From Ruegeria sp. HKCCD8929 (GTDB taxonomy: Bacteria > Pseudomonadota > Alphaproteobacteria > Rhodobacterales > Rhodobacteraceae), in the NCBI RefSeq assembly GCF_013031405.1, contig NZ_WPZY01000012.1:1-64000 (forward strand): a stretch of 64,000 bases of DNA. Reading direction: 5' to 3'. The translations under genes were made by a program, and so were the position numbers. The notes beneath the pieces are model-generated. The model did no database searches. It was given only the letters and a program-made list of their open reading frames with translations, and was not told where the DNA came from. Positions within the stretch are counted from its first letter, which is position 1. Every line of letters begins with the position of its first letter. This document shows, in pieces, positions 1,030 through 17,837 of this stretch.

Positions 1030-1974
1030 ATGTGTGGAATTGCTGGTAGGATACTAGCCGCGCCCGGAAAGGTTGGGGCGGACCTGGTTGACCTGATGGA
1101 TGCGCAGGAACACCGGGGGGCGGACAGCACGGGATTTGCCGTCTACGGCCTGCCTCGGGAAACCGGGTATGTTTTGCGTGGAATGGGGTTCGATAAGTCG
1201 CAGCAGGATGCTGACCTCGATGTATTTGAGTCTGTCTTGCGCGCCCATGGAAGCAGTTTTCTGTCTGATCCTAAAATCGTAACGGACGATAACCGTCATT
1301 ACTGCTTTCGGATAGAGATTTCGGATCCGTCGAATTTGAAAGCTTGGGTCGCGGACGCCGATGGGTTGACGGATCGGATTGAGGTGCAATCCTGCGGCCG
1401 CAGCCTTGAGATCATCAAAGATATCGGCGGTGCCGAAGCCGTGGCCGAAAAGCACTGTGTGCGTGACATGATCGGTACGCACGGGCTGGGGCACGCACGG
1501 CTGGCCACGGAAAGCTCGGTCCTGCCCAACGCCTCGCACCCGTTCTGGGCGCGCCCGTTTTCGGATGTGGCGATCGTGCATAACGGGCAGATCACCGACT
1601 ATTTCACCTGGCGCGATAGGCTGACCCGGATGGGCTATCGATTTCTGACTGAGAATGACAGCGAGTTGATCGCGGTCTGGGTCAGCGATCAGATGAAAGC
1701 GGGCCTGACGATGGAACAGGCTCTGAAGAAGTCGATCAACTCCATCGACGGCGTCTTTACCTACATGATCGCAACGCCGTCCGGGATAGGCTTTGCCAAG
1801 GACCGGTTCGCCATGAAGCCTCTGGTCGTCGTTAACCGCAATGGCGATCTGGCTGCAGCAACAGAAGAACAGGCGGTGCGCCGTGTGATGACCGAGGAAT
1901 GCAACGTGATCAATTACGACGGTCCGTCGTTGACCGGCATCTGGGGCGCCGGAATCCGGAGCCTGGCGGCATGA
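1030..1974 (+). CDS. Class-II glutamine amidotransferase subunit of a glutamate-synthase-like (GlxB/MgsA-type) enzyme
   Basis: The protein has 314 residues. The start at 1030 is chosen because it gives MCGIAGR, where Cys2 becomes the N-terminal nucleophile of Ntn-type glutaminases; an upstream start at 1009 would bury it. A GGGAG-like ribosome site precedes it. The conserved VHNGQI and TENDSELIA segments of the PurF/GltB fold are visible. In the known three-subunit enzymes (N-methylglutamate synthase MgsABC, GlxBCD) this subunit supplies the amidotransferase half. The stop overlaps the next start by 4 bp. With the GlnA-like ligase downstream, transfer of an amine from a gamma-glutamyl amide is as plausible as release of ammonia from glutamine. 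Confidence 0.88.
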   Translation: MCGIAGRILAAPGKVGADLVDLMDAQEHRGADSTGFAVYGLPRETGYVLRGMGFDKSQQDADLDVFESVLRAHGSSFLSDPKIVTDDNRHYCFRIEISDPSNLKAWVADADGLTDRIEVQSCGRSLEIIKDIGGAEAVAEKHCVRDMIGTHGLGHARLATESSVLPNASHPFWARPFSDVAIVHNGQITDYFTWRDRLTRMGYRFLTENDSELIAVWVSDQMKAGLTMEQALKKSINSIDGVFTYMIATPSGIGFAKDRFAMKPLVVVNRNGDLAAATEEQAVRRVMTEECNVINYDGPSLTGIWGAGIRSLAA

Positions 1975-2684
1975 ACGAGGTGGCAGCGAAGATGGATGAG
2001 ATCGTCATCGAAGTCGGCAAGCGGCATATTCGTGAGGTAAATCGCGATATCATGGCAGCTTGCGCGGCAGGTCGGCCAATCCGCGTGGTCGATACCCTGT
2101 CACGCCATAATCTGGGTGTGGGCCTTCCGGATAATGTGGATATCACCTTTGAGGGCTCGGTTGGCTATTACTGCGGCGGCCTCAACACCGGAGCGAACAT
2201 CACGATCGAACGTAACTGCGGCTGGGCCGTCGGTGAAGGCATGGCCAAGGGTCATATTACCGTTGGTGGCTATGCCGGCATGTCCTGCGGGGCGGCGATG
2301 ATTGGTGGCACGATCCACGTCAAAGGCGATGCCGGGCCACGAGTCGGTGTCGCGATGAAAGGTGGAAACATCGTCGTCGAAGGAAAGATTGGTTATCAGT
2401 CTGGCTTCATGGCGCATTCCGGACGGATCATCGCCCTTGGTGGAGCAGGGGAATCCTGCGCTGACGCGCTTTGGGAAGGTGAGGTCTGGGTGGCCGGAGA
2501 GGTCGACAGCTTGGGAGTGGACGTCGATGTGATCGAACCGACGGCTGAGGAAGTGGCCGAGGTCGATGCGATCCTTGAACCGCTCGGCCTTATCGACAGT
2601 TCGCGAAATTGGCGCAAAATGGTTTCGGGCCAGCGTCTTTGGTATTTTGAAAGCAGGGACGCAAGCGCATGGCTCATGATCTGA
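1971..2684 (+). CDS. GXGXG-domain subunit of a glutamate-synthase-like (GlxC/MgsB-type) enzyme
   Basis: The protein has 237 residues and corresponds to the C-terminal beta-helix domain of glutamate synthase. Repeated glycine-rich turns (GSVGYYCGGLNTGANI, GYAGMSCGAAMIGG, GDAGPRVGVAMKGG) mark the right-handed beta helix. The ATG at 1971 sits in an ATGA overlap with the previous stop; a second Met at 1992 is an alternative. In split enzymes this domain packs between the amidotransferase and FMN subunits and has no catalytic residues of its own. Coding overlaps both neighbours, so the three subunits are translationally coupled. Confidence 0.88.
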   Translation: MNEVAAKMDEIVIEVGKRHIREVNRDIMAACAAGRPIRVVDTLSRHNLGVGLPDNVDITFEGSVGYYCGGLNTGANITIERNCGWAVGEGMAKGHITVGGYAGMSCGAAMIGGTIHVKGDAGPRVGVAMKGGNIVVEGKIGYQSGFMAHSGRIIALGGAGESCADALWEGEVWVAGEVDSLGVDVDVIEPTAEEVAEVDAILEPLGLIDSSRNWRKMVSGQRLWYFESRDASAWLMI

Positions 2685-4093
2685 GTAAACCTTACGAATA
2701 TCCGTTCGACGTCGCCTCGGAAGAGGAAATCAGGTTCCGCGATGCGGGAGCGATCGACGGCCGCCCGGCTGGGGTGCCATCTTCCTACGATGAAGGCGGG
2801 TCGACCCGCTGGACGCCCGAGGCGATCTCGGAAGTTCACGCGCTGGCACAGCTCGGACGCTATCAGGTGCGTGGATACAACACGTTCAACAAGCAATTGC
2901 CGACATTCGACGATCTGACATTCGTTCCTGCAACGATGACCCGCCTTCCTCTGGAAGGCTATCGCGAGAATTGCGATACGACGACTGTTCTGGGCGGGGG
3001 TCGTGGTCTTGTTGAGCGTCCGCTTGAATTGAAGATCCCGATCTACATCGCTTCAATGTCCTTTGGTGCCTTGTCAGCATCGGCGAAGGCATCGCTGGGT
3101 TATGGGGCCTCGAAAGTGGGGACCATGACCTGCACAGGTGAGGGTGGCATGCTGGAAGAGGAGCGCGAAGCCTCCCAACGGTTGCTCTATCAGATGTCAC
3201 CCGCCCGGTATGGCGTGGATCTGGACCATCTGCGCCGCGCGGATGCTTTGGAACTAGTCGTGGGGCAGGGGGCGAAACCCGGAACCGGAGGCCTGCTGCT
3301 GGGCATGAAGGTGAGCCGGCGGGTCAGCCAGATGCGGACTTTGCCCGAAGGCGTAGACCAGCGGTCGACCATCCGCCATCCCGATTTCCTGGGGGCAGAC
3401 GATCTGTCGGTCAAGATCGAAGAGCTGCGTATTGCCACCAACTATCAGGTGCCGATCTTCATCAAAATGGGTGCGACACGGCCCCGGTTTGACGTGGCAG
3501 TTGCAGCCAAAGCAGGTGCAGATGTTGTGGTTGTCGACGGTGCAGAAGGTGGCACCGGCGCATCGCCCGAGCTGCTGCTGAACCATACCGGTATCCCAAC
3601 GATGAGCGCCATTCGTGCAGCGCGCGAAGCCCTGGATGAATGCGGCATGACCGGCAAGGTCTCTCTGGTGGCAGCTGGTGGTATTCGTTCCGGCGTGGAT
3701 GCTGCAAAATGTCTGGCGCTTGGCGCGGACGCAGTGATGATCGGCAATGCAGCCATGGTTGCACTTGGATGCAACAGCCCGCGGTATCTTGAGGATTACG
3801 CGGCCTTGGGAACATCCCCCGGCGCGTGTCACCATTGCCATACGGGCCGCTGCCCGGTTGGCATTGCGACCCAGGAAAAGAGCCTGGAAGCTCGGATGAA
3901 CCCGCATGCCGGCGCTGAGCGCGTGGCACGCTATCTGACGGCTATGACCATGGAGATTACGGCGCTGGCAAAGGCCTGTGGCAAGTCCTCGGTTCACAAT
4001 CTGGAAACCGAAGACCTGCGCGCCCTGAGCTTTGAAGCGTCGGCGTTCACCGGAGTGAAAATGGCCGGAATTGACAGGGCCTTCGACTGGTGA
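2669..4093 (+). CDS. FMN/iron-sulfur synthase subunit of a glutamate-synthase-like (GlxD/MgsC-type) enzyme
   Basis: The protein has 474 residues. The central TIM-barrel shows the FMN-binding features of glutamate synthase (SMSFGALS near residue 130, GAEGGTGASP near 290, AAGGIRSG near 335). The cluster C387-x2-C390-x4-C395 followed by PVGI is the [3Fe-4S] motif of GltB and GlxD. The family reduces an alpha-imino intermediate on 2-oxoglutarate to glutamate, or to N-methylglutamate when methylamine is delivered. The gene starts 16 bp inside its predecessor. Because it lies in a regulon with a GlnA-like ligase and a sarcosine-oxidase-like protein, I infer synthesis of an N-substituted glutamate rather than general ammonia assimilation; the amine is unknown. 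Confidence 0.87.
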   Translation: MAHDLSKPYEYPFDVASEEEIRFRDAGAIDGRPAGVPSSYDEGGSTRWTPEAISEVHALAQLGRYQVRGYNTFNKQLPTFDDLTFVPATMTRLPLEGYRENCDTTTVLGGGRGLVERPLELKIPIYIASMSFGALSASAKASLGYGASKVGTMTCTGEGGMLEEEREASQRLLYQMSPARYGVDLDHLRRADALELVVGQGAKPGTGGLLLGMKVSRRVSQMRTLPEGVDQRSTIRHPDFLGADDLSVKIEELRIATNYQVPIFIKMGATRPRFDVAVAAKAGADVVVVDGAEGGTGASPELLLNHTGIPTMSAIRAAREALDECGMTGKVSLVAAGGIRSGVDAAKCLALGADAVMIGNAAMVALGCNSPRYLEDYAALGTSPGACHHCHTGRCPVGIATQEKSLEARMNPHAGAERVARYLTAMTMEITALAKACGKSSVHNLETEDLRALSFEASAFTGVKMAGIDRAFDW

Positions 4094-4785
4094 GGATCTC
4101 GCTTCTTGAACTGACCAGCCACCCTTTGCCCTTGCTCGAAGGGGTGCCGCGAACCGCGCAGCAGATACAGGAGTGGATCGTTCCGCATCTGCCAGAGGCC
4201 GAGTTCGAGGTGGCTAGGGTCGTCGATGGTGCTCCACTTCCCGATCTTGACGATTTCGATGGTGTCATCGTCGGCGGTTCGGAATGCGGTGTTTATGATG
4301 ACGCCGAATGGATGCGGCCGCTGCGTACATTCCTCGAACTCTGTCGAGATCACCGTAAACCGGTTTTCGGGATTTGTTTCGGGCACCAGATCATGGCCGA
4401 CATCTATGGTGGACGGTCTGAGAAAGCTGAGGTGGGCAATATCGTCGGTGCGCGGTCTTTCGACTTTGCCGGAGACAGCGCTGACGCATTTGTGTGGCAT
4501 CAGGATCAGGTGACCCGCGTTCCCAACTCGGCTCGGGTGACGGGATCAGCAGGTCATTGCCCCGTCGGGGCGTTGGACTATGACTTTCCGGCCCGGTCTG
4601 TGCAGTTCCATCCTGAATACAGGGCGGATCATGTGCGCGAGCTGCTAAAGCGGGTTCGAGAGGTTCTTTTGACGCCCGAGGAAGCGAATGCGAGCCTATC
4701 CACGGTCGACGCCGCAACTGTGTCGGAAGATCTTGCCGCGCGTCAGGCGGTGGAGCTGTTCCGAGGCACCTACAACCCGGCGTGA
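4090..4785 (+). CDS. Class-I (triad) glutamine amidotransferase / gamma-glutamyl hydrolase-like protein
   Basis: The protein has 231 residues with a GTG start that overlaps the stop of the synthase subunit. The nucleophile elbow GICFGHQ places Cys96 as the catalytic residue, and FHPEY carries the His and Glu of the triad. The fold resembles the glutaminase domain of GMP synthase and, more distantly, PuuD. No synthetase domain follows. In this setting it could hydrolyse a gamma-glutamyl amide or serve as an extra glutaminase; the sequence does not decide between them. The C-terminal 35 residues (SLSTVDAATVSEDLAARQAV) extend past the catalytic core. Confidence 0.8.
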   Translation: MRISLLELTSHPLPLLEGVPRTAQQIQEWIVPHLPEAEFEVARVVDGAPLPDLDDFDGVIVGGSECGVYDDAEWMRPLRTFLELCRDHRKPVFGICFGHQIMADIYGGRSEKAEVGNIVGARSFDFAGDSADAFVWHQDQVTRVPNSARVTGSAGHCPVGALDYDFPARSVQFHPEYRADHVRELLKRVREVLLTPEEANASLSTVDAATVSEDLAARQAVELFRGTYNPA

Positions 4786-4840
4786 GACGTCATTGGGCGA
4801 ACGCCTCTTGATCCTGATCAAGTCCGGTCGATCCCCTTGT

Positions 4841-4860
4841 GCATACTGTATACACTATGA
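4841..4860. promoter_or_regulatory. GntR operator site 2
   Basis: CATACTGTATACACTATG (4842-4859) is a near-perfect palindrome centred at 4850/4851. It lies just upstream of the DUF6455 gene, which begins at 4876, and gives that gene its own regulated promoter. Confidence 0.7.
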
Positions 4861-4875: not shown

Positions 4876-5226
4876 ATGACGGGATACAAGAATTTCTTTG
4901 AGCGAATTGCGCGGATCGTCAATGCGCCACGCGATGAAAGTATCAGCGAGCTTGAACTGTCCGATCTCGGTCTTTCCCGTGCTGATCTAGCCATGTTGCG
5001 CTCTGGCGCGCCCAACGCGCGAGAGCGTATCCTTTCTATGGCAAGTCAGTTTGGTCTTAGCGAAGATGATCTCAATGCACATCCTGAGCTTAGCCTTGAG
5101 CTTGCAGAAAAATGTGGGCATTGCCGTCAGGCGAAAACCTGCCGCGATGCTATTCGATCAGGTAGTCGCCTGCCGCAGGAGAAGTGCCCGAACTCAGGGT
5201 TTTATAGTGCTCTGTCGGACCTTTAA
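4876..5226 (+). CDS. DUF6455-family small cysteine-rich protein
   Basis: The protein has 116 residues. The first half is helical (LGLSRADLAMLRSG), and the C-terminal half has the clustered cysteines CGHCRQAKTC followed by a late CPNSGFY. This is the pattern of the DUF6455 family, common and uncharacterised in Rhodobacteraceae; the cysteines could bind zinc or an Fe-S cluster. It has its own copy of the operator 20 bp upstream, so it belongs to the regulon. The last 4 bp overlap the end of the convergent flavoprotein gene. Function is unknown. Confidence 0.75.
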   Translation: MTGYKNFFERIARIVNAPRDESISELELSDLGLSRADLAMLRSGAPNARERILSMASQFGLSEDDLNAHPELSLELAEKCGHCRQAKTCRDAIRSGSRLPQEKCPNSGFYSALSDL

Positions 5227-6362
5227 CGCCCGCTTGGACTTTCCTTCGGGCTCAGTTTTCTTCGACCAGTGATCTTGAAACGATCTGCCGTTCCGAAACC
5301 CTTCATTCCAACACCTGCCGCAAATTCGGCAAAGACCGGCGCGTGTTTAAACAGATGTCCCGAGCAGCCTCCGGCGAACAGCACGTTTTCATGCTCGGGG
5401 TGCCAGTCGACAATAAAGTGTGTGTCGGGTGTCAGGATGATTTGGTTGAACTTGGAGTCCACGACCCGCTCACCCTCAAGGCCCGGAAGACGATGACGGA
5501 TGTAGCTGCGGGTGCGACCCAGCGTTTCCTGCCGGATCAGCCGCTCGTCATTGTCCAGATCGATCTTGTCCGGAATCACGACCGCGGCTTTCACGCCTGA
5601 ACCTTCGGATGAGGGTAGCCCGAATGAGCCCTGACCATGATCGATCCAGCAGGGCATCCGGCTCATATCGAACTCCTCAGACCCGTCGGGTGTTGATGTG
5701 TAGAGAACATTCACACCAACCACCGTCGATATCGGCTTGATCGTCCTAGGGAACATGTCCGCCATCCAGGGGCCGGTTGAGACAATGATAAGATCAGCCT
5801 CAAGCGGCTTTCCTTCCAGCATTGGGCGCTCTGATCCATCGGTGGTCACGCGACCGCGCTGTACGATCCCGCCTGCGCGGCGAAACAGCTCAAGCCCGGT
5901 CAGGACGCAGCGATGCGCCATCAGCATTCCGGCTTCGGGTTCGAACAGGGCGTATTCGATGTCAGGAACGCGAAACTGCGGAAATCGCGATTCGATATCC
6001 TGCCGTGCGAATTTGTAATAGGGCACACCAACACGGTCGAAAGTTTCGGCTGTGGCGTTCTCCCAATCACAATGCCCGCCTGTTGCCAGAATCAGGGCGC
6101 CGCATTCGTACATAAGATTCTGGCCGCTTTCTGCTTGCAGTTCCAACCAGCGCAGGCGACTTTCCCGCGCCCACCGGGTATAAAACTCGTCCCGCCCAGA
6201 AATCGCGCGGATGACACGGTTGTAATCTGTTGAAGATGCACGGGAATGTCCCGGTTCCCAGCGATCTATCAAGGTCACTGCCTCACCACGTCGTTGCAGT
6301 GTAAGCGCCGTCATGACGCCGACGATGCCGCCTCCGACAACGATGATCGAGTTCTTGGACAT
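5223..6362 (-). CDS. Monomeric sarcosine oxidase-like FAD amine oxidoreductase (DAO superfamily)
   Basis: The protein has 379 residues. IIVVGGGIVGVMTALTLQRRG at the N-terminus is the FAD Rossmann motif. The order and wording of later segments (SSTDYNRVIRAISG, FEPEAGMLMAHRC, DTHFIVDWHPEHENV, AGGCSGHLFKHAP) follow monomeric sarcosine oxidase and N-methyltryptophan oxidase closely. These enzymes oxidise N-alkyl amino acids to aldehyde plus free amino acid. The position of the cysteine that holds FAD covalently in sarcosine oxidase is Asn306 here, so FAD is probably non-covalent. The gene is divergent from the GlnA-like gene across a shared operator. I infer it oxidises the N-alkyl-glutamate made by the synthase. 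Confidence 0.82.
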   Translation of the reverse strand: MSKNSIIVVGGGIVGVMTALTLQRRGEAVTLIDRWEPGHSRASSTDYNRVIRAISGRDEFYTRWARESRLRWLELQAESGQNLMYECGALILATGGHCDWENATAETFDRVGVPYYKFARQDIESRFPQFRVPDIEYALFEPEAGMLMAHRCVLTGLELFRRAGGIVQRGRVTTDGSERPMLEGKPLEADLIIVSTGPWMADMFPRTIKPISTVVGVNVLYTSTPDGSEEFDMSRMPCWIDHGQGSFGLPSSEGSGVKAAVVIPDKIDLDNDERLIRQETLGRTRSYIRHRLPGLEGERVVDSKFNQIILTPDTHFIVDWHPEHENVLFAGGCSGHLFKHAPVFAEFAAGVGMKGFGTADRFKITGRRKLSPKESPSGR

Positions 6363-6396: not shown

Positions 6397-6418
6397 TGAA
6401 TACTGTATACAGAATACA
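6397..6418. promoter_or_regulatory. GntR operator site 3, between divergent genes
   Basis: The palindrome is centred at 6407/6408 with core CTGTATACAG and pairs 9 of 11 positions. It lies 35 bp from the flavoprotein start on one side and 37 bp from the GlnA-like start on the other, so one bound repressor could silence both promoters. Confidence 0.75.
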
Positions 6419-6454: not shown

Positions 6455-7747
6455 ATGAGTTCGGGATTTGATCTGCCCGAGGGAACGCATACCGTCATAT
6501 TGGGTGTGGGTGATCTCAACGGCATCATGCGCGGCAAGCGCATTCCGGCCAGCCATTGGGATCACGTCTGCAAAAGCGGCAATGCGCTGTCGATTGCATT
6601 GATGGCAATCGACATGACATGCGACGTCTGGGATACGCCCTACGTCAATTTCGACAACGGCTACCCCGATATGCACGTCTTCCCTATGACCCAGCCCGTT
6701 GCTGTGCCTTGGGAGCCGGGCGTCGCCGTTTGCTTCGGCCGCGCAGAGGGTATGGACCATAAGCCTGTCCCCATCGATCCACGTCAGGCGCTGGTGCGGC
6801 AGGTTGAACGTGCTCGCAGTATGGGATTCGAGGTCAATGTTGGTACCGAACTTGAATTCTATCTTCTGGATCCGGAAACCGGGCAGCCGCGCGACAGTGG
6901 GATTCAGGTCTACGGCCTGGGCCGTGCCGCGCGGATGGAACACATTGTCGGACCGATCCGCCAGCAGATCAATGAATGCGGTATTCCCATTGAACAGTCG
7001 AATCCGGAGTACGCTGCCGGTCAGATCGAAGTGAATATCCGGTACGGAGAAGCTCTGGAAGCGGCGGATCGCGTCATCTTGTTCAAATCGCTGATCCGCC
7101 AGTTGGGGATCGCACACGGGTATCTGGCGACTTTCATGCCAAAGCCGTTCTTTGAGCAGTCAGGCAATGGATTTCACACGCATTATTCGCTGTGGAAAGA
7201 CGGCAAGAATGTCTTCGCTGACAACGGTAAGATAAACGATATCGGCAAGTCCTTCATCGCCGGGCTGCAGCAACGCATGTGCGAAACATCGATCTGTGGT
7301 AGCGGCACGGTCAATGGCTATCGTCGTCGCCAGCCCTATACTTTCTGCCCGATCAACACGAGCTGGGGTTATGACAACCGGACTGTTGGTATTCGGGTCA
7401 TAGAAGGGTCCGATAGCGCGGTGCGCGTGGAAAAACGCGATGCCGGCGCAGATGCCAATCCCTACCTTCTGCTGGCTGCCGAGATTGGGGCGGGCCTGGA
7501 TGGAATCGAGCAAGGTTTAACCCCGACGGATCCAACCCCCGGCAACGCATATGAAGAAGGCATAGGCGATCCGATCCCCACCGATCTGCCGACGGCGATC
7601 GAACTGGCACGAGGGTCCGAGTGGCTTCGCGATGTCATGGGCGAAATGCTGTGGGAACTGGTTTTGCAGCAGGCCGAGCGCGAGCTTGAGTTCTTCAATC
7701 AACAGGTCACTTCGGTTGAGTTGGACCGTTACCTGAGGACGTTCTGA
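6455..7747 (+). CDS. Glutamine-synthetase-like ligase (GlnA3 / gamma-glutamyl-amine synthetase family)
   Basis: The protein has 430 residues. The start at 6455 is chosen for its GGGAGAGCG ribosome site and because longer frames run through the operator. Family landmarks include GTELEFYLL (metal site), the ATP/ammonia region ESG-like GNGFHTHYSL, and PYTFCPINTSWGYDNRTVGIRV. The C-terminal adenylylation tyrosine region of housekeeping GlnA is absent, and housekeeping glnA is present at 50108. Relatives couple amines to glutamate (PuuA, GmaS). The stop overlaps the BMC-P start, which links it tightly to the compartment. I infer it activates the imported amine as a gamma-glutamyl amide. Confidence 0.85.
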   Translation: MSSGFDLPEGTHTVILGVGDLNGIMRGKRIPASHWDHVCKSGNALSIALMAIDMTCDVWDTPYVNFDNGYPDMHVFPMTQPVAVPWEPGVAVCFGRAEGMDHKPVPIDPRQALVRQVERARSMGFEVNVGTELEFYLLDPETGQPRDSGIQVYGLGRAARMEHIVGPIRQQINECGIPIEQSNPEYAAGQIEVNIRYGEALEAADRVILFKSLIRQLGIAHGYLATFMPKPFFEQSGNGFHTHYSLWKDGKNVFADNGKINDIGKSFIAGLQQRMCETSICGSGTVNGYRRRQPYTFCPINTSWGYDNRTVGIRVIEGSDSAVRVEKRDAGADANPYLLLAAEIGAGLDGIEQGLTPTDPTPGNAYEEGIGDPIPTDLPTAIELARGSEWLRDVMGEMLWELVLQQAERELEFFNQQVTSVELDRYLRTF

Positions 7748-8013
7748 TGCATCTGGGCAAGATCGCCGGAACCGTCACAGCCACGACCAAAGACGCAAAA
7801 CTGGTTGGTTCGAAACTGCTGGTGACGGATTTGGTCGATAGCAAAGGTAAGGTGATCGATCCGGCACGAGTTGCAGTCGACACCTGCGGCGCCGGGGTCG
7901 GTGACACGGTTCTGCTGGTCAGCGGCTCGGCGGCGCGCATGGTGGCCGGTCTGTCCACGGCGCCCGTTGATCTGGCGATCATCGCGATTGTGGACCGTGT
8001 GTCCACGATCTGA
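7747..8013 (+). CDS. Microcompartment pentamer shell protein (BMC-P, EutN/CcmL family)
   Basis: The protein has 88 residues, the usual length for EutN/CcmL vertex proteins. It begins [16 protein letters not shown] and carries KLLVTDL and the [17 protein letters not shown] segment typical of the family. Pentamers cap the vertices of the polyhedral shell. Translation is coupled to the GlnA-like ligase through a TGATG overlap. It is the only BMC-P gene in the window. Confidence 0.93.
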
Positions 8014-9573: not shown

Positions 9574-10952
9574 TGGACGCAGATCTGAAATCGATCGCCG
9601 CCGCAAGGCGCGCCGCAGACAGCGCTTTCGAAGCCTATCGCACTTTTCTGGGTACTGACCCGGTACAGGTGAACGCGATTGTCGACGCCATGGCGCGCGC
9701 TATTGAGCCGGAAGCCGAGCGGTTGGGGCAAATGGCAGTTGAGGAAACCGGCTATGGAAATGTGCCGGACAAAAGGGTCAAGAACCTGTTCAATGCGCTT
9801 TCGGTCGCCGACTACCTAAGAGACGTGACAACGCTGGGCATGCTCTGGCGAGATGACGCGACAAAGATCGCAGCCTTCGGGGAACCCATGGGTGTTGTGG
9901 CGGCCCTGATCCCGGTGACAAACCCGACGTCGACCATCATCTACAAAGTGCTTTCAGCGGTGAAAGCTGGCAATGCCATTGTGTGCGCACCGCACCCGCG
10001 CGGCGTGGTGTGCGGGATCGAAACCGTGCGCGTCATGGCACGTGTAGCCGAGCAGATGGGCGCCCCGAAGGGCCTCATCCAGTGTCTGGATTCAGTAACG
10101 ATTCACGGAACGGCCGAGTTGATGAGGCATCGCCGTACTTCGGTTGTGATGGCAACCGGTGGCCCGGCAATGGTCAAAGCGGCTTATTCCAGCGGCAAAC
10201 CCACGCTTGCGGTCGGTGCAGGCAACGTGCCCTGCTACGTGCATAAGTCGAAAGCGCGCGATCTGGCCGAAGTGGCTGAGATGATCGTGACGTCGAAAAG
10301 CTTTGATTACGGAACGGCTTGCGTCAGTGAGCAAGCTGTCGTTGCTGACCCAGAAATCGCACGTGATCTGCGCCACGAGCTCAAGCTGAAAGGTGCCTAT
10401 TTCTGTACGTCTGCCGAAGCGGATCGTTTGGCAGGGGTCATCTTCAAAGGCGTACAAGCCATGGACCCGGATAGAGTCGGGCAAAGCCCGCAGGCGCTGG
10501 CGGATGCGGCAGGTTTTTCTATCCCGCCACGCACCCGGTGCCTTGTCTCGGAAGAGACAGAAGTAGGCTGGCAACGCCCGCTGTCCGCCGAAAAGTTGAA
10601 CCCCGTTCTGGCGTTTTACGCGGCGAAATCCACCGACCATGGGATCAAGCTGGCGCAATCCATCGCCAAGTTCGAAGGGTGGGGCCATTCCTCGGTCATC
10701 CATTCGGACGACCCCGAGGTCGTGGCCCGGTTTGCTACCGTGCCGACGGGTCGGGTTCTGGTGAATACGCCGGGCATCATGGGCGGCATGGGATATTCGA
10801 CCGATCTTGAACCATCCTTCATGCTGGGCACTGGCACGTGGTCGGGTTCGATCACATCGGACAACGTAACGGCCTTGCATCTCATCAACATCAAACGGGT
10901 TGCTTATGAAAGCAGACCCTGGCGCGACATTTATGAGGAGTATGGCGCATGA
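9573..10952 (+). CDS. CoA-acylating aldehyde dehydrogenase, predicted microcompartment core enzyme
   Basis: The protein has 459 residues. The ATG at 9573 overlaps the previous stop; a GTG one codon earlier is possible. The catalytic cysteine is Cys250 in YGTACVSEQ, and GAGNVPCYV and EGWGHSSVIHS are typical of EutE/PduP/AdhE-type acylating enzymes that convert aldehydes to acyl-CoA. Such an enzyme is the constant partner of catabolic microcompartments, where the shell confines the aldehyde. The first 25 residues form a probable amphipathic helix (LKSIAAARRAADSAFEAYR) that could target it to the lumen. The aldehyde it uses cannot be read from sequence. Confidence 0.9.
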   Translation: MDADLKSIAAARRAADSAFEAYRTFLGTDPVQVNAIVDAMARAIEPEAERLGQMAVEETGYGNVPDKRVKNLFNALSVADYLRDVTTLGMLWRDDATKIAAFGEPMGVVAALIPVTNPTSTIIYKVLSAVKAGNAIVCAPHPRGVVCGIETVRVMARVAEQMGAPKGLIQCLDSVTIHGTAELMRHRRTSVVMATGGPAMVKAAYSSGKPTLAVGAGNVPCYVHKSKARDLAEVAEMIVTSKSFDYGTACVSEQAVVADPEIARDLRHELKLKGAYFCTSAEADRLAGVIFKGVQAMDPDRVGQSPQALADAAGFSIPPRTRCLVSEETEVGWQRPLSAEKLNPVLAFYAAKSTDHGIKLAQSIAKFEGWGHSSVIHSDDPEVVARFATVPTGRVLVNTPGIMGGMGYSTDLEPSFMLGTGTWSGSITSDNVTALHLINIKRVAYESRPWRDIYEEYGA

Positions 10953-11572
10953 GCGAGATTACCATCCGGGCGCTGATGCAGATCGACAATCTGCAACCCA
11001 AATTCGCGGCCTATAACGGTGCGACGGTCCAAGGGTCGGTTCCTTTGTCTGGGGATACGGTGCTGATTGGGGAATTCGCGCCGGGCAACGGGGTATTTTC
11101 GCTGATTGACCGGGCCCTCAAGGCGTCTTCGGTTGAGGCGACCACACAGCTGGTCGAACGCGAGTTCGGATTTTTCATCTTGCGCTCTCCATCAAGTGCC
11201 GAGGTATCCGCTGCACGGGATGCGATGCTGGCAGAACTGGGTGCTTCGATGTCTGACCGGTTGAAACCGGCGATAAGTTCGACGCAAATCATCACCAGCG
11301 TCGAACCCTATCAGGCGCAATTGCTGAACAAATGGCGCAAGGGGGCGCTGATCGTTCCGGGGCAGACGCTGGGGATCGTGGAATGTGCCCCGGCCGCTTA
11401 CATCTCGATTGCCGCGAATGAGGCAGAGAAGGCGGCAGAAATCGACATCGTCGAAGTGCGCGCGGTAGGGCGGTTTGGCCGCTTGTTCATTTCAGGATCG
11501 GAAAACTCGGTCAGAACTGCTGTCGAGGCCGCGACCCGCGCCATCGAGGTTATAGACGGGCAAGCCAACTGA
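10949..11572 (+). CDS. Microcompartment trimer shell protein with tandem BMC domains (BMC-T)
   Basis: The protein has 207 residues, twice a BMC domain. The first domain runs to about residue 100 and the second covers about 110-205, where [26 protein letters not shown] is the clearest BMC signature. Trimers of tandem proteins form pseudohexamers, often with larger gated pores for cofactors. The ATGA overlap couples it to the aldehyde dehydrogenase, and its stop overlaps the next start. Confidence 0.9.
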
Positions 11573-12751
11573 TGGCAGCGCCGCGTGTCATAGGTTCGGA
11601 GGCGGTCGAAGACGCCCGCCGGCGCGGCAGGATCGTGTTCGAAGTCCTGCCCGACGATATCGTGACAGCCCTGGCTCGTGAAACGGCCGAACGTGTTGGC
11701 ATTAAACTTGTCGACGGCCCGTTGGAAAAACCACAGCCACCACGCTCCGATGCAGCGGTTTCGATGCAGCGAGTGCTGTATCGTCGCTCGCCCAAATGGG
11801 TTGCACCTGTACGGGCGAAACGCAAAGCCCGCAGATTGGGTAAGCTTGCATTGATCGGGGCTGGAGGCGTCGGGGGCAATGTGGCGCATCTGGCGGCCAT
11901 GCAGGATATCGCCGATGAGATTACCCTGATCGATATTGCACCCGGAATGGCCGCAGCAACGGCGTTGGATCTGAACCACACGTCAGGCATTACCGGAGCG
12001 CGAGCGCGATGTGTTGGCGGCGAGTCGCTGGATCTTGTGGCAGGGGCCGAGGTGGTGGTGGTGACCGCTGGACGCGCCCGACGTCCGGGCATGAGCCGCG
12101 CGGATTTGATCGACGTGAACGCACGCGTGATCCGTCAGGCCGCCGAGGCCATCCGCTCTGCCGCGCCAGATGCCGTCGTCATCGTCGTGACCAATCCGCT
12201 TGATGAAATGACCGTCGAAATGCTGCGCGCCTCCGGGTTCCCGCGCGAACGGGTGCTGGGCATGGCCGGTACGCTTGACAGCAGCCGCTTTCGCAACGCA
12301 CTGGCCATGGCGGCCGGAGTTGTCCCCGCCGATGTCGAGGCCTTTACGCTTGGCAGTCATGGCGACGAGATGGCACCGATCCCCAGCCGTGCCAGAATTA
12401 AGGGCAGGGCATTGGATGTGTTTCTGTCATCCGATCAGATCGAGGCTTGCGTTCAGGACGCGGTGACAGGGGGGGCAGGTTGTTGCCCTCAAGAAATCAG
12501 GCTCTGCGACCATCGCACCGGCGCATGCGTCGATCGAGTTGATCGACCATATCCGGGGTGCACGCACGGGCTCGGTTCCGGTCTCGGTCATGTTGCAGGG
12601 GGAATATGGCATCGATGGCGTGGTTCTTGGCGTTCCCGCCCATCTCGGGTCCTCTGGGTTGGTTGAAGTCGAGGAATTGCAGCTGACCGATCAAGAGCAA
12701 GCCGCCTTGCAGAATGCGGCTGATGCCCTCCGTTCGAGGTTGGGCCTGTGA
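11572..12751 (+). pseudogene. Malate/lactate dehydrogenase-like protein with N-terminal targeting extension, frameshifted
   Basis: Reading from 11572 gives a good malate dehydrogenase fold up to about 12467: [12 protein letters not shown] (NAD loop), [18 protein letters not shown] (mobile loop arginines), VTNPLDEM and the catalytic GSHGDEM. A run of seven G at about 12472 then throws the frame, and the true C-terminus ([20 protein letters not shown] to SRLGL) continues in another frame to 12751. Removing one G restores a 392-residue protein. The first 90 residues are extra to the family and contain [19 protein letters not shown], resembling lumen-targeting helices. The expected role is NADH reoxidation inside the compartment. 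The shift could be a sequencing error, a real mutation or phase variation. Confidence 0.8.
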
Positions 12752-13158
12752 CCATCCGCACCTGGAAGTCAGGGGGGCGGTTCGAAGAAGTCGCGTCTTA
12801 CTCCCGCGCAAAGCGCATCGGTCCCTTCGTTTGGGTTGCTGGGACCACAGCGATCGAACCCAGTGGGCGTATTCATGCGCCAGGAGATGTGGGCGCCCAG
12901 ACAAAATACATTCTGTCCCGTATAGAAGAGGCGCTTAAGGCCGTCGGTGCCGAGATGCGCCATGTAGGCCGGGTCCGCGCCTATCTGACCGATCTGTCGC
13001 GCGCGGGTGAATTCGCACGCGTTCACGGAGAGGTATTCAAGGATATCGATCCAGTTCTGACAGCCGTTCAAGCGGGGCTTACGCAACCCGGTTTGATGGT
13101 GGAAATCGATGTGGATGCGATAATTCACGACGAAAACGGCGAAATCAGCGGAATCTGA
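12748..13158 (+). CDS. RidA (YjgF/YER057c/UK114) family enamine/imine deaminase
   Basis: The protein has 136 residues with a GTG start that overlaps the end of the dehydrogenase-like gene. YSRAKRIGPFVWVAGTTAIEPSG and the late QPGLMVEIDVDAII are family signatures; Arg in HVGRVRAYLTD is the expected substrate-anchoring arginine. RidA proteins hydrolyse reactive imines or enamines released by amine-metabolising enzymes. Its presence at the end of the shell gene cluster supports an imine intermediate in the pathway. Confidence 0.87.
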   Translation: MTIRTWKSGGRFEEVASYSRAKRIGPFVWVAGTTAIEPSGRIHAPGDVGAQTKYILSRIEEALKAVGAEMRHVGRVRAYLTDLSRAGEFARVHGEVFKDIDPVLTAVQAGLTQPGLMVEIDVDAIIHDENGEISGI

Positions 13159-13196: not shown

Positions 13197-13222
13197 CTTG
13201 TGTACTGTATACAGAATACAAG
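13197..13222. promoter_or_regulatory. GntR operator site 4, before the ABC importer
   Basis: This is the longest of the palindromes: a 26-bp dyad centred at 13209/13210 with 11 of 13 pairs matching, outer arms CTTGT and ACAAG and core CTGTATACAG. It lies 33 bp upstream of the binding-protein gene and puts the importer in the regulon. Confidence 0.8.
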
Positions 13223-13254: not shown

Positions 13255-14535
13255 ATGATCAAGACAGCGCTACTCAGCGGAACATGTATCGCGCTCATGG
13301 CCTCGGCGGCCGCAGCGGAAATCAAGGTTGGATTTATCGGATCTCTTTCTTCGGATACCGGACTATCGACGCTGCGCGGTGCCGAAATTGCAATTGAAGA
13401 GTTGAATGCGAATGGCGGCGTGATGGGGGAGCAGATCACTCTGGTGTCGGCCGACACGGGACAGGACCCGACCGAAGGTGTGCGGGCCTATGAATATCTG
13501 GCGGAAACCGAAGAAGTGGATTTCATCATTTCGGGCACTATCGATGATGTATCGCTTGGCTGGCTGCCGCGGATGCAGGAATACAGGATTCCGACGCTGG
13601 ATACCTGGACATCCTATATCGGCATCATCGACATGGTGGTCGAAGACCCCGAAAGCATGGCGCCGTACTTCATGAACATCGCTTCTGACGAGGCGCTGGC
13701 CACACTTTACATCAACTTTGGCGCGGACGTGCTGAAAGAGAAGATGGGATGGGAATCCGTCGTTATTTTGGCCGAGGATACAGCGTTTGGCGAAGCGATC
13801 ACAGGTTTGGTGACCGAGGCGCTGGCACTCGTTGCCGGGATCGAGGTCAAGGATATCATCACCTATGACGTTGCCACCGTTGACTTTGCACCGATCTTCA
13901 GCAGGGCGCAAGACACTGGGGCCGACTTCATCTATCAGGTCTCATCCGTGAATTCACAGGTGGTCTCGTCGCAATATGTGAAACTGCAGGTGCCCATGGC
14001 GATGACAGGCGTTAACGTAGCCGCATTGGGCATGGAATATTGGGAAGACACTGGCGGAGCCGGTGGCGGCATCTCGACCTTGTCACCGATCCCGTCTGTG
14101 GGGTTCAAGCTGGACCCGGCCAGTCAGGCCTTTGTTGATACCTATCAGGCCAAATATGACAGCCGCCCGCTGCTGCCACATTTCAATGGGTTCAACGCCT
14201 ATCACGGTCTGAAACAGGCCATGGCTGCCTCGGAAGAGGCGGGTGGCTTCGACAATGTCGAAGGCTGGGCCGATGCGATGAAGAAACAGGACCTGGTTCT
14301 TGAGATGGATGGTCAGCTTTGGCTGCGCTATGCCTTCTGGGGCGACGATGAGGTCGAGCCTGTGACAGGCCGCACCTATCCTCACAACATTCGCTTTGAT
14401 CTGTCCGAGCCGTTTGATGATGCGGCCCCGTCAATGGTCGTTGTTCAGTGGTATGAAGACGGCACCGCCGCCGTAGTGTACCCCGAGAAATACGCGACCG
14501 GCGAGTTCACGCTGCCCAGCTGGGTCAAGCAGTAA
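13255..14535 (+). CDS. Periplasmic substrate-binding protein of a branched-chain-type (HAAT) ABC importer
   Basis: The protein has 426 residues. The start at 13255 follows an AGGGAG site and yields a clear Sec signal peptide (MIKTALLSGTCIALMASAAAA, cleavage before EIKVGFIG). The mature part is a type-I periplasmic binding fold of the LivJ/amide-binding family. The operator immediately upstream and the permease/ATPase genes downstream indicate it brings in the substrate of the microcompartment pathway. The ligand cannot be assigned from sequence; an amine, amide or amino-acid-like compound is most likely from context. Confidence 0.88.
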   Translation: MIKTALLSGTCIALMASAAAAEIKVGFIGSLSSDTGLSTLRGAEIAIEELNANGGVMGEQITLVSADTGQDPTEGVRAYEYLAETEEVDFIISGTIDDVSLGWLPRMQEYRIPTLDTWTSYIGIIDMVVEDPESMAPYFMNIASDEALATLYINFGADVLKEKMGWESVVILAEDTAFGEAITGLVTEALALVAGIEVKDIITYDVATVDFAPIFSRAQDTGADFIYQVSSVNSQVVSSQYVKLQVPMAMTGVNVAALGMEYWEDTGGAGGGISTLSPIPSVGFKLDPASQAFVDTYQAKYDSRPLLPHFNGFNAYHGLKQAMAASEEAGGFDNVEGWADAMKKQDLVLEMDGQLWLRYAFWGDDEVEPVTGRTYPHNIRFDLSEPFDDAAPSMVVVQWYEDGTAAVVYPEKYATGEFTLPSWVKQ

Positions 14536-14560
14536 TCCTGACCCAGCCATAGCTTGAAAC

Positions 14561-14582: not shown

Positions 14583-14600
14583 GCAGCCAAGGATCTACAC

Positions 14601-15452
14601 ATGTTGCAGATACTGATTCAGGGGCTTTTGCTCAGCGGTCTCTACGCGCTTATTGCAATGGGGTTTACGCTGATCTTCAGCATCGGTCGCGTTCTGAATC
14701 TCGCCTATGGCGCCTATCTGATGGTCGGCGGCTATATTTACTTCTGGATCTCGCAATCGCTTGGAATGCCCAAACTTATGGGGGTTGCCGTTGCCGCTGT
14801 ACTGGGTGTTTTGATGGGAGTTCTGAAGTACCGCCTGATTGTCAAAACGCTCAAAGGGGATCACGTGGCTGTCGAGATTTCGACGCTGATCCTTGCGGTC
14901 GTCATTCAGGCCGGGATCGTTCTGGTCTTTGGCGAAAGCAGCAAAATCCTTTTGCCGATTGTTCCCGGAGTGATCAATGTGGCCGGGGCCTCAGTCACGT
15001 ATAACATCCTGATTGCAACCCTTATTAGCTGGGCCATTCTGCTTGGGCTCTATGCCTTTGTACGGCTGACACATACCGGACGGGCGATGCAGGCGGTGTC
15101 GATGGATGCCAAAGGCGCGGCGATTTCAGGGATCGACCCTGATCGCATCAATCTGATCACGTGGGGTATCTCCGGCGCGCTGGGAGCACTCGGTGGTGTT
15201 TTCTTCGCCAGCTATACCCAATTGTCGCCGTCGATGTGGGTGGCACCACTGATCATCTCGGTGGCCGTTGTCATCGTGGGCGGGATCGGCTCCATCCTCG
15301 GCACACTGGTAGTGGCCCATATTGTCGGGTTTCTTGAAGTCATCGTTGTGGCGACGCTCGCACCGGAACTGCGAGGTGTATTCACGATGCTGTTGATCAT
15401 CGGCGTGCTGGTGACGCGACCGCAGGGCCTGTTTGGCCGCGAGGAGCTATAA
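14601..15452 (+). CDS. LivH-type ABC permease
   Basis: The protein has 283 residues and about eight membrane segments. It opens with LIQGLLLSGLYALIAMGFTLIFSIGRVLNLAYGAY, which is diagnostic of LivH permeases, and carries the loop AISGIDPDRINLITWGISGALGALGG. It forms the inner-membrane channel with the LivM-type protein encoded 2 bp downstream. Confidence 0.92.
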   Translation: MLQILIQGLLLSGLYALIAMGFTLIFSIGRVLNLAYGAYLMVGGYIYFWISQSLGMPKLMGVAVAAVLGVLMGVLKYRLIVKTLKGDHVAVEISTLILAVVIQAGIVLVFGESSKILLPIVPGVINVAGASVTYNILIATLISWAILLGLYAFVRLTHTGRAMQAVSMDAKGAAISGIDPDRINLITWGISGALGALGGVFFASYTQLSPSMWVAPLIISVAVVIVGGIGSILGTLVVAHIVGFLEVIVVATLAPELRGVFTMLLIIGVLVTRPQGLFGREEL

Positions 15453-15454
15453 CG

Positions 15455-16402
15455 ATGGGGCTACGTTGGTTTCACTTTGCTCTCTGGGGTGGATTGATCG
15501 CCGGAATGTTCCTGTTGCCGCAATTCGTCTCAAACGGGACGTTGCGCACGATGATCTTTGCTAACTATCTGGCGATCTTTGCCATCAGTTGGGACGTGCT
15601 GTCTGGAAGAACAGGATATGTCAGCTTTGGCCACCCTTTCCTGATTGGCATCGGGGCCTACACCACCGCGATCCTGACCAAGCGGTTTGACGTCGCTGTC
15701 GAAATCTCGATCCCGATCGCAGTTCTTGTCACCATGATTGCCAGCCTGCTCGTGTTGCTGCCGGCCCTGCGTATTCGGGGCAGCTATTTCGCTTTGGTCA
15801 CGCTGGCCTTCATGGAGTTGCTGTATCAATTGGTTCAGGTCATTCGTCCAGATCTGACTGGCGGAACGCGCGGTATGTCCGGCATTCAAACGCTGACACG
15901 CGGCGCGGCGAACGGTTACTACCTGTCCACCGCGCTTATGTTGACGATTGCCGTCAGCATGTGGCTGCTAATGAAAACGCGGCTTGGAACTGCCTTGTCT
16001 GCGATTGGCATGAACGAGGAAAGTGTCCGCGGCTCGGGTCTCAGCACCACGCGCCTCAAAGCCTTTGCCTTCTTGACAAGCGCAATGATCGCGGGTCTGG
16101 GTGGCGCGTTCTACGTCCACTATTTGGGATCACTCGCGCCGCGTGCGCTGTTTGATATCAACTTCCTGTTCACGATCATCGTTGCAGCGCTCTTAGGTGG
16201 AACCTCAACCATCATCGGCCCAATGATCGGCGCCTTTTTCATGACTTTCCTGTTGGAGTACTTGCGGCCGGTTCTTCCCGGCGCTGAACGTTACTTTGTT
16301 TACGGTGCCATTGCGCTGCTCCTCTACATGTATCAACCGAAAGGCCTGGTAGAGCTGGTCCAGCGTGGTTTCAAAGGTCTGGGCAAGGGGCGGACGGCAT
16401 GA
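15455..16402 (+). CDS. LivM-type ABC permease
   Basis: The protein has 315 residues and is polytopic. GRTGYVSFGHPFLIGIGAYTTAIL and the RGSYFALVTLAFMELLYQLV segment are typical of LivM, as is the late GLGGAFYVHYLGSLAPR. It follows the LivH-type gene by 2 bp, and its end overlaps the LivG-type start by 4 bp. Confidence 0.92.
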   Translation: MGLRWFHFALWGGLIAGMFLLPQFVSNGTLRTMIFANYLAIFAISWDVLSGRTGYVSFGHPFLIGIGAYTTAILTKRFDVAVEISIPIAVLVTMIASLLVLLPALRIRGSYFALVTLAFMELLYQLVQVIRPDLTGGTRGMSGIQTLTRGAANGYYLSTALMLTIAVSMWLLMKTRLGTALSAIGMNEESVRGSGLSTTRLKAFAFLTSAMIAGLGGAFYVHYLGSLAPRALFDINFLFTIIVAALLGGTSTIIGPMIGAFFMTFLLEYLRPVLPGAERYFVYGAIALLLYMYQPKGLVELVQRGFKGLGKGRTA

Positions 16403-17130
16403 GCGTAGCGTTGCAGGTTTCAGGTCTGGTGAAGCGATTTGGCGGGTTGGTCGCGACGAATGATCTGTCGTTCTCGCTTAAAGAGGGCGAGTCATTGGGA
16501 TTGATCGGCCCAAATGGGGCAGGCAAGACAACCGTGTTCAGCCAGATCATGGGTGAGCTACGGCAGAACGGCGGCACGATTGAACTGTTCGGGCAGGAAA
16601 TCTCGACGCTGTTGACGCCTCAACGCATTCGCGCCGGGGTCAGTCGGACCTATCAGATCCCGCGTCCGTTTGGCGACATGAGCGTTGCCGAAAACATCCG
16701 GGTCGGTCTGATGCCCGACAATATCTGGAAAATGATTGTCTCCCCCCCCGATAAAGAACGTGAGCGGGAAATTGCACTCAGCGTCGGGTTTACAGAAGCG
16801 GATCTGGATCGCACGCCAACAGAATTGGCCATGGGTGATCTACGCAAGCTAGAAATGGCGCGCACAATGGCAACGGCACCCAGGGTGATGTTGCTGGATG
16901 AGGTGTTTGCAGGTCTCACCACAGGGGAGATCGCTCAGATCTCAGATCTCATTCAGTCGATGCGCAAGGATGGGATGACCTTCTTGATTGTCAGCCATGA
17001 CTTGCCCGCGCTTGAGCCTTTGATCGACCGCGCTATCGTCATTGAACGGGGCACCATGATCGCCGAGGGCTCATTTAGCGAGGTGATGAACGACAAAGCT
17101 GTTCAGGCCTCGTATCTGGGGGGCGCATAA
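16399..17130 (+). CDS. LivG-type ABC ATPase
   Basis: The protein has 243 residues. Walker A is GPNGAGKTT near residue 38 and Walker B is VMLLDEVFAGL. The signature motif is degenerate: LAMGDLRKLEMARTMA where LSxGQ is usual. It powers import together with the LivF-type ATPase encoded immediately downstream. Confidence 0.92.
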   Translation: MSVALQVSGLVKRFGGLVATNDLSFSLKEGESLGLIGPNGAGKTTVFSQIMGELRQNGGTIELFGQEISTLLTPQRIRAGVSRTYQIPRPFGDMSVAENIRVGLMPDNIWKMIVSPPDKEREREIALSVGFTEADLDRTPTELAMGDLRKLEMARTMATAPRVMLLDEVFAGLTTGEIAQISDLIQSMRKDGMTFLIVSHDLPALEPLIDRAIVIERGTMIAEGSFSEVMNDKAVQASYLGGA

Positions 17131-17837
17131 TGTCGTATCTAGAAATCGAGAACCTGTCGGCTTTCTATGGCAAGGCGCAGGCGTTGACCGACATCTCAGT
17201 CACAGTGCAACCGGGTGAGATCGTCGCCGTTGTTGGCCCAAATGGCGCGGGCAAGTCCACCTTGCTGGACAGCATTATGGGGTTGGTCAAGATTGAGGGC
17301 GACATCCGGTTGAGGGGGCATAGCCTTGCAGGGCGAACGCCATCGGAAATCGTGCGCCACGGCGTTGGTTATGCGCCCGAACGCTTCAATCTGTCTCCCT
17401 ATATGTCGGTGCGCGACAATCTGATGGTCGGCGCATATACGGCCCGCGAGGACATCCAGAGCAATCTGGACATGGTCCACAAGCTTTTCCCGCGTCTTGA
17501 GGAGCGGGAAGGCCAAGAGACCTCAACCCAGTCTGGCGGGGAAAGGCAGATGGTATCGTTCGGGCGAGCCCTGATGACCAGCCCCGAGCTTCTATTGGTA
17601 GATGAGCCAACCATCGGCCTGGCACCCAAAATATGTCAGGAAATCGCCGAGGTTGTCCGACAGCTGAACAAGGACTACGGCCTGACCGTTGTGATCACCG
17701 AGCAGAATGCCAATTTCGCTTTGTCGCTCGCCAGCCGGATCTATGTACTGGAATCGGGTCGGATGCAGACAATTGGTACGGCCGCCGAGCTTCGAAACGA
17801 TGAGAGACTGCTTGAGGCCTATTTCGGCGGTCACTAG
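17130..17837 (+). CDS. LivF-type ABC ATPase
   Basis: The protein has 235 residues. Walker A is GPNGAGKST, the signature is QSGGERQMVSFGRALM, and Walker B is LLLVDEPTIGLAP. It is the last gene of the importer and of the GntR-controlled block; the start shares its first base with the end of the previous stop. No terminator is obvious behind it. Confidence 0.93.
   Translation: MSYLEIENLSAFYGKAQALTDISVTVQPGEIVAVVGPNGAGKSTLLDSIMGLVKIEGDIRLRGHSLAGRTPSEIVRHGVGYAPERFNLSPYMSVRDNLMVGAYTAREDIQSNLDMVHKLFPRLEEREGQETSTQSGGERQMVSFGRALMTSPELLLVDEPTIGLAPKICQEIAEVVRQLNKDYGLTVVITEQNANFALSLASRIYVLESGRMQTIGTAAELRNDERLLEAYFGGH

Follow-up and report, generated by a model that had tools for sequence, protein, structure and literature searches.

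The window analysed here is a stretch of 64,000 nucleotides from Ruegeria sp. HKCCD8929 (contig NZ_WPZY01000012.1, positions 1 to 64,000), and near its start it carries a cluster in which genes for bacterial microcompartment (BMC) shell proteins stand among genes for a coenzyme A (CoA)-acylating aldehyde dehydrogenase (ALDH) and for enzymes resembling glutamine and glutamate synthases. An initial annotation had proposed this locus as a microcompartment for amine catabolism. The host genome comprises 6.08 Mb in 146 contigs, with the locus on the contig designated C20, and, judged by GlxD, Ruegeria sp. ANG-R and R. profundi are the closest named relatives. The shell genes of classes BMC-P, BMC-H and BMC-T, the acylating ALDH, the GlnA-like ligase, GlxBCD, the flavoprotein, the opine-dehydrogenase-like protein and the Rid protein, which that annotation had placed between 1030 and 17837, were all found there. 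Its gene list was correct for the genes it named and had missed four others, namely those for a malate-dehydrogenase-like (MDH) protein, a GntR/FCD regulator, a class-I glutamine amidotransferase-like protein (GATase) and a 116-aa protein.

All genes are on the forward strand unless stated. Divergent from glxB, on the reverse strand, lies the gene for a GntR/FCD transcriptional regulator, likely the local one (230..901; Pfam FCD 6.8e-21, GntR 1.2e-16). A three-part MgsABC-like synthase, recognised by homology only, is then encoded by a GlxB/MgsA-like class-II glutamine amidotransferase with N-terminal MCGIAG (1030..1974; PF13522 1.3e-15), a GlxC/MgsB-like GXGXG protein (1971..2684; PF01493 8.6e-18) and a GlxD/MgsC-like protein with an FMN glutamate-synthase domain, our marker for the pathway clade (2669..4093; PF01645 1.3e-95). 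The class-I GATase, a possible gamma-glutamyl-amide hydrolase and accessory to the set, follows at 4090..4785 (PF00117 1e-16), and after it comes the 116-aa Cys-rich protein (4876..5226), which has an operator-like site upstream and no Pfam or NCBIfam match. The proposed N-alkyl-glutamate oxidase is a DAO-family flavoprotein resembling monomeric sarcosine oxidase (MSOX) on the reverse strand (5223..6362; PF01266 4.1e-40; 1el5 119 bits). Downstream are a putative GlnA-like gamma-glutamyl-amine ligase (6455..7747; PF00120, Gln-synt_C, 7.5e-87), a BMC-P vertex protein of the EutN/CcmL family (7747..8013; PF03319 3.3e-25), a BMC-H shell hexamer protein with 67% to EutM (8057..8365; PF00936 1.1e-25), an opine-dehydrogenase-fold protein whose N-terminal helix and linker resemble an encapsulation peptide (8389..9573; 1bg6 65.6 bits), the CoA-acylating ALDH (9570..10952; TIGR02518 496 bits, 5j78 426 bits), a CcmP-like BMC-T shell protein (10949..11572; PF00936 6.4e-12; CcmP model 203 bits, below the cut-off of 340), the MDH-like protein with an N-terminal extension of ~90 aa and a broken frame (11572..12750, the end being approximate; Ldh_1_N 2.2e-35) and a Rid-family protein (12748..13158; PF01042 9.3e-22). 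The cluster closes with a Liv-type ABC importer, consisting of a substrate-binding protein (SBP; 13255..14535; PF13458 8e-38) and, from profile matches over 14601..17837, two permeases (14601-15452 and 15455-16402) and two ATPases (16399-17130 and 17130-17837). The best solved relative of the SBP scored just 44 bits, so the transporter gives no substrate clue.

Genes for BMC-H, BMC-P and BMC-T together are what is expected of a shell-forming locus, and this combination is present here; the BMC-H and BMC-T genes are the only PF00936 genes in the whole genome. The acylating ALDH asked for in a metabolosome core is also present, with a TIGR02518 score below the curated cut-off of 620. The SauS model likewise remained below its cut-off (302 bits against 600), so that neither the acetaldehyde nor the sulfoacetaldehyde model decides the substrate. 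Shell classes and acylating dehydrogenase are shared with the Eut, Pdu and glycyl-radical enzyme metabolosomes, whereas their signature enzymes, as the initial annotation had noted, are missing: EutBC, PduCDE, glycyl-radical enzyme and also RuBisCO have no Pfam match among 20 locus proteins, the set in which the last three were looked for. EutB is absent genome-wide, and an ethanolamine ammonia-lyase metabolosome was rejected for this reason. The locus, an undescribed candidate according to the initial annotation, may already carry a catalogue listing as a metabolosome of unknown function; in the literature, judged on titles and abstract openings, we found no description of this gene set.

In order to follow the gene set across genomes, we scanned genome contigs with a BMC-T alignment and analysed the best 80 of 89 loci. 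Since the loci were picked by BMC-T similarity, the conservation figures describe this BMC-T clade; the denominators for each gene are the loci with a stretch long enough to evaluate. The hosts belong to the Alpha- and Gammaproteobacteria, Acidimicrobiia and Nocardioides, and include Ruegeria, Sulfitobacter, Hoeflea, Nitratireductor, Granulosicoccaceae, Arenicellales and a Thioglobus; five loci (L030-L033 and L037) are closely akin to the window. The core genes were nearly always present (flavoprotein 63/64, ligase 68/68, BMC-P 69/69, BMC-H 70/70, opine-dehydrogenase-like 70/70, ALDH 69/69, MDH 72/72), and the gene order was identical in all 67 loci having all eight core genes; the Rid gene was present in 68/73. 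A GGG motif, at what we take to be the pore loop of BMC-H, was kept in 71/71 loci, and the presumed catalytic Cys of ALDH in 77/79, the other 2 being gaps. Clustering of other neighbours gave little: an SDR recurred in 8 loci, two more families reached 4 loci apiece, and the DMFA2-like gene described below was not picked up. A search with the opine-dehydrogenase-like protein matched 13 of 295 family genomes (own genome included). Nine of these matches (the own one at 100%) had at least 46% identity and lay inside the same gene set, and the other four, at 27-29%, lay outside such a set. BMC-P is also present in one of the genomes, G014, whose contig is that of L109. The other eight family genomes with the locus appear again among the 80 loci.

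GlxBCD accompanies the shell genes even where it is not adjacent to them. GlxD lies inside the fetched stretch in 43 of the 80 loci (37 upstream, 6 downstream) and is not in the stretch of another 20 despite at least 9.5 kb upstream; 17 short loci were not judgeable. At genome level, a close GlxD (at least 76% identity, the next paralogues in the 295 family genomes having at most 57%) was found in 9/9 family genomes with the locus compared to 4/286 without its opine-dehydrogenase-like marker (Fisher p 1.7e-14, without correction for kinship). The 286 are the genomes without a close marker; shell genes were searched just in the four with GlxD, and none were found in them; in one of the four, GlxD is a fragment lying at the end of a contig. 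In a second set, 20 of 20 shell genomes searched also have GlxD, at 72-91% identity. Of these, 17 came from loci without linked GlxD (L079, L095 and L104 being left out) and three are among the nine, so that the GlxBCD clade is present in all 26 distinct shell genomes checked. With a stricter limit, GlxD occurred in 2/384 other genomes of the class sample and 0/397 of the phylum sample. Its CxxCx4C motif was kept in 55 of 56 rows. The host genome has a third GlxBCD and glutamine synthetase (GS)-like set (L123, G000:C1:300001-320000), near a flavin monooxygenase that by eye resembles trimethylamine monooxygenase.

A palindrome recurs in the intergenic regions of the locus. The first copy, TGTATACAGTATACA, lies between the GntR gene and glxB (990..1004), a copy with 1 mismatch lies 5' of the 116-aa gene (4840..4854), and overlapping pairs are found between flavoprotein and ligase (6397..6418, starts 6397 and 6404) and 5' of the importer genes (13199..13220, starts 13199 and 13206). 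With at most one mismatch, the pattern TGTATNNNNNATACA gave these 6 sites in the window vs 0.37 expected. The tighter pattern TGTATACNGNATACA, again with at most one mismatch, matched just the same six positions in the whole genome (C20:990-13220), while its reversed control had one genome match on each strand. The looser pattern had 214 sites across the 80 loci, and 200 of them were inside three promoter regions. A site was present between flavoprotein and ligase in 60/65 evaluable loci, at glxB in 13/19 with enough upstream sequence, and at the importer in 40/56 with an SBP; 20 loci had 77 sites vs 9 after shuffling. The sites also follow GlxBCD away from the shell genes, being near the glxB start in 8/9 unlinked stretches (the exception is L117) and present at least once in 6/6 stretches without shell genes. 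In Candidatus Rhodobacter lobularis, ~100 kb separate GlxBCD and its site from the BMC operon and the importer, each of which has its own sites. Ten genomes had about six single-mismatch positions elsewhere, a chance-like number (we matched the coordinates ourselves). Many GlxBCD copies, whether linked, unlinked or shell-less, have a relative of the GntR/FCD protein beside them. These patterns suggest that the locus is probably one regulon. Linkage, genome co-occurrence and common operator-like sites thus place GlxBCD and the ligase with the shell genes, as had been proposed, and the contrary pattern, in which the GlnA and GlxBCD genes are never shell-linked, was not what we found.

The residues of the ligase are consistent with a substrate other than ammonia. 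The metal, ATP and glutamate residues of GS are mostly kept in the family, while in the ammonia pocket the Y179 column is Val in 66/70 and the E327 column Phe in 69/71, so the protein is probably not an ordinary ammonia enzyme, in agreement with the initial annotation; in the GmaS encoded by this genome, these places hold Cys and Trp. The same V and F substitutions are found in GlnA4 of Streptomyces coelicolor, a proven gamma-glutamylethanolamide synthetase, as V189 (or D186, by model) and F331, in a route for which the accessible part of the text mentions no shell and no GlxBCD (PMC6529630). A ligase 63% identical to that of the window lies on Mesorhizobium loti pML2037 (L129) near a P450, a 2Fe-2S protein, a gamma-glutamyl hydrolase and an APC permease; no shell gene is annotated there, and this is perhaps another amine route. 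For the flavoprotein the closest solved protein is MSOX. The position that we take to be that of the flavin-linking Cys holds Cys in 11/67 flavoproteins. Equivalents of MSOX Arg52 (65/67), Lys348 (67/67) and Lys265 (66/67) are kept, of which, according to the accessible portions of the sarcosine oxidase papers, the first two bind the carboxylate and the third activates O2 (PMC12582975, PMC5459902). As the O2-activating Lys and two of the three residues that bind the carboxylate are kept, the description as sarcosine-oxidase-like appears sound.

Six genomes with a close GlxD have no PF00936 protein (L110-L113, L125 and L126; the stretches of L112 and L113 run into contig ends). Their GlxBCD stretches contain a non-acylating aldehyde dehydrogenase in 5/6, a Rid protein in 5/6 and a ligase, 66-72% identical, in 4/6. 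In the GlxD tree, the five shell-less rows used fall at three positions, each beside or amid rows of shell genomes, with support of 98/99 for L110/L111 with L098 and L116, 96/84 for L125, and a weaker 90/87 for L112/L126. The same GlxBCD front end thus appears to have two alternative outlets, namely soluble conversion of the aldehyde to an acid, or a shell that holds an acylating dehydrogenase.

Two kinds of known systems are close to the locus. Among plasmid records, the closest BMC-T proteins are on Methylibium petroleiphilum PM1 plasmid RPME01 and Rhodococcus oxybenzonivorans pRB98. Both plasmid loci share the order BMC-P, BMC-H, ALDH, BMC-T, malate dehydrogenase, with identities (Methylibium/Rhodococcus) of 52%/49% for ALDH, 52%/54% for BMC-T and 73%/70% for BMC-H. 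They add EutJ, an alcohol dehydrogenase, a HAD-hydrolase and other genes, whereas the (incomplete) gene tables of the stretches shown list no ligase, GlxBCD, flavoprotein or opine-dehydrogenase-like protein. Both also have a similar-looking MDH N-terminal extension, a separate open reading frame in Rhodococcus, with weak scores: the extension of the MDH-like family here matched the N-terminus of EutQ with 14-17 bits in tiny databases, the separate Rhodococcus frame with 12.5 bits and Methylibium with 6.7 bits. That Rhodococcus frame (L127:12618-13004) has a EutQ-like start and an LYRR motif like those of the MDH extensions. By our own matching, both plasmid loci fit the MIC1 description in the available text of Axen 2014 (PMC4207490). 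The Ruegeria locus has the MIC1 combination of AldDH with an LDH/MDH-type dehydrogenase and no phosphotransacylase (PTAC), and the MreB-like EutJ, phosphatase and hydrolase of MIC1 were not found among the 20 locus proteins. The second system is the N-methylglutamate pathway (gmaS, mgsABC, mgdABCD), which has in common the GS-like ligase and the GlxBCD/MgsABC architecture and which, in the accessible text of PMC6237917, oxidises the N-alkyl-glutamate. The locus differs in having a single-chain DAO oxidase instead of MgdABCD, together with a shell and an acylating ALDH. The host genome holds a gmaS/mgs-type set apart from the locus, at C41 (GmaS match 621 bits), its GlxD being 51% and its ligase 30% identical to those of the locus; the canonical methylamine pathway was rejected on account of this set.

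We consider it fairly likely that the locus encodes a metabolosome working aerobically on a small primary amine and organised as one regulon under the local GntR-type regulator. We infer each catalytic step, the location of the cargo, the pairing of regulator and operator, and the substrate. The Liv-type importer would take up the amine or a precursor, and the GlnA-like ligase would join amine and glutamate, with ATP, to a gamma-glutamyl alkylamide. GlxBCD, with its glutamate-synthase-like build, would pass the alkylamine to 2-oxoglutarate; as in the reaction proposed for N-methylglutamate synthase, the products would be N-alkyl-glutamate and glutamate. With O2, the flavoprotein would then oxidise N-alkyl-glutamate, yielding glutamate and an aldehyde, which the acylating ALDH would convert inside the shell to acyl-CoA and NADH. 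The MDH-like protein, with its targeting-like extension, would re-oxidise NADH with oxaloacetate, so that no aldehyde need be wasted as alcohol; residues to which we assign malate-type active-site roles are kept at all five positions in 75/75 of its family.

Several observations weigh against this picture. The binding of the palindrome by the GntR protein is suggested by position. In the ligase, the GS Asn264 column is Ser in 67/70, and the Asp50 column is Asp in 70/70 (a gappy part of the alignment), unlike in some amine ligases. For NpaA1 and its kin, the accessible text of PMC11335346 names loss of GS residues including Asp50' as the likely reason for no ammonium use, so the kept Asp50 is a misfit with the simple amine-ligase picture of that paper. 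The third carboxylate-binding residue of MSOX, Tyr55, is Ser or His in 65/67 flavoproteins and Tyr in 0/67. All six shell-less stretches have a DAO oxidase of another subfamily beside GlxBCD, and L111 has no ligase in its 20 kb; the oxidation step therefore need not be identical. In two of the six, acyl-CoA ligases akin to fatty-acid or branched-chain types hint at a substrate longer than C2. A PduL-type PTAC (PF06130) for CoA recycling is absent genome-wide, PF06130 being the transacylase family searched, which makes this an "incomplete core" metabolosome in the terms of Axen 2014. The MDH-like frame is broken at a seven-G run (12469-12475) in this assembly, by either a sequencing error or a real lesion; an open frame covers the match in 75/80 related loci. 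Finally, the initial annotation held that the route would explain every gene, and this claim was not supported: we found no proven place for the opine-dehydrogenase-like, MDH-like and Rid proteins and the class-I GATase, and the proposed route leaves the first, the third and the GATase unexplained. The name RidA applies to the family fold and not to the catalytic function, as the Arg that is catalytic in the imine deaminase RidA, taken from the E. coli protein, is present in 0/72 rows, window included.

The same genes could be arranged differently. In a Puu/Ipu-like route, the flavoprotein would oxidise the gamma-glutamyl amine itself, the class-I GATase would remove glutamate and GlxBCD would just recycle nitrogen. 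The class-I GATase in the window agrees with such a route, as do a PuuD-like hydrolase adjoining the locus in L100 and L103 and the gamma-glutamyl hydrolase and P450 near the Mesorhizobium ligase. However, GATase relatives at more than 33% identity were found in 27 of the 80 loci (some stretches being too short to judge), compared to the GlxBCD clade in every shell genome checked, and GlxBCD has the common operator-like sites. The CoA-acylating dehydrogenase also differs from a PuuC-type enzyme, and the flavoprotein is nearest to MSOX rather than to other solved proteins. We therefore regard a Puu/Ipu-like route as rather unlikely.

A second possibility is that the opine-dehydrogenase-like protein, with NAD inside the shell, frees the aldehyde from N-alkyl-glutamate, the flavoprotein catalysing another step. 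Opine dehydrogenases cleave secondary-amine amino acids, and the gene, as given above, is in every evaluable shell locus. An encapsulation peptide has the layout of a helix and a flexible linker, which the N-terminus of this protein resembles, short of proof: its AlphaFold2 model (pLDDT 88.3) has a helix at 3-13 followed by a low-confidence 13-20, the FxxF positions are kept in 69/74 and 65/74, and the mean hydrophobic moment is 0.39 vs 0.23 for shuffles. Four other N-termini, with starts as called by script, remained within about 0.06 of their own shuffles. The fold is also as the initial annotation had it, the best Foldseek match of the model being 1bg6 (TM score 0.82 on target), and the nucleotide-binding glycines are mostly kept in the family, the third being Glu in the window protein; the Pfam Octopine_DH score of 23.1 is below the cut-off of 30. 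The catalytic part of the name did not hold. In opine dehydrogenases a His-Asp pair is catalytic, whereas here the His is Glu, Asp or Ala in 74/74 and the Asp is kept in 44/74. No relative was found in the six shell-less stretches, where a DAO oxidase is present. Aldehyde release by this protein thus seems improbable to us.

That the locus is a nitrogen-assimilation operon, with ligase and GlxBCD acting on ammonia or glutamine and the shell belonging to an unrelated aldehyde pathway, is suggested by the family names glutamine synthetase and glutamate synthase and by the kept Asp50, but we judge it very improbable from the loss of the ammonia-site Tyr179 and Glu327, from co-occurrence and operator-like sites common with the shell genes, and from the aldehyde enzymes that accompany the same GlxBCD in shell-less loci.

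Around the locus, six of ten further window proteins scanned gave matches. These include SecD, SecF, aconitase, FliG and YjeF, and the surroundings therefore look chromosomal. After the importer genes, at 18280-21762, lies a gene for a 1160-aa protein without Pfam match, charged and repetitive by eye. An Rfam scan of 1-18500 gave no match.

For the proposed amine metabolosome, a C2-C5 amine fits best as substrate, with ethylamine or ethanolamine first; the ligase pocket and the acetaldehyde/sulfoacetaldehyde-type ALDH would favour a C2 amine. With 65% identity as the lower limit, an N,N-dimethylformamidase-like hydrolase was found in 8/20 shell genomes (three of them carriers known beforehand) and 1/2 shell-less genomes. 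In the family sample, 1/9 genomes with the locus has it, namely G213, from which the query came, as do 2/286 others. Its operon has an operator-like site in one Hoeflea genome and none was found in two others. The recurrence of this gene suggests, as a lead rather than a result, that some hosts may start from an amide. A gene like that of the N,N-dimethylformamidase large subunit (DMFA2-like) adjoins BMC or GlxBCD genes in L038, L039, L064, L098, L116 and L154; in L154, which is in the genome of L064, it shares an operon with a second Liv-type importer, with an operator-like site upstream.

The chances seem to us evenly balanced that the locus represents a new functional class of metabolosome, one that uses O2 and a GS/glutamate-synthase-like cascade, in which a malate-oxaloacetate shuttle replaces alcohol formation and whose shell was gained or lost several times. 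The signature of that class would be the conversion of a small, perhaps volatile, primary amine to N-alkyl-glutamate and then to aldehyde. The accessible text of Sutter 2021 (PMC8217296) gives MIC2-7 and MUF2-3 without function and describes metabolosome types having an aldehyde dehydrogenase but no obvious aldehyde-making enzyme. The likely regulon and the shell-less variants point to a missing front end of this sort, namely a glutamate-bound amine. If true, the nitrogen and carbon of amines would have their own organelle in marine bacteria, and the variants would offer a natural comparison, with and without shell, of what the shell is for, a question that would be directly testable in related strains, for example of Ruegeria, Sulfitobacter and Hoeflea.

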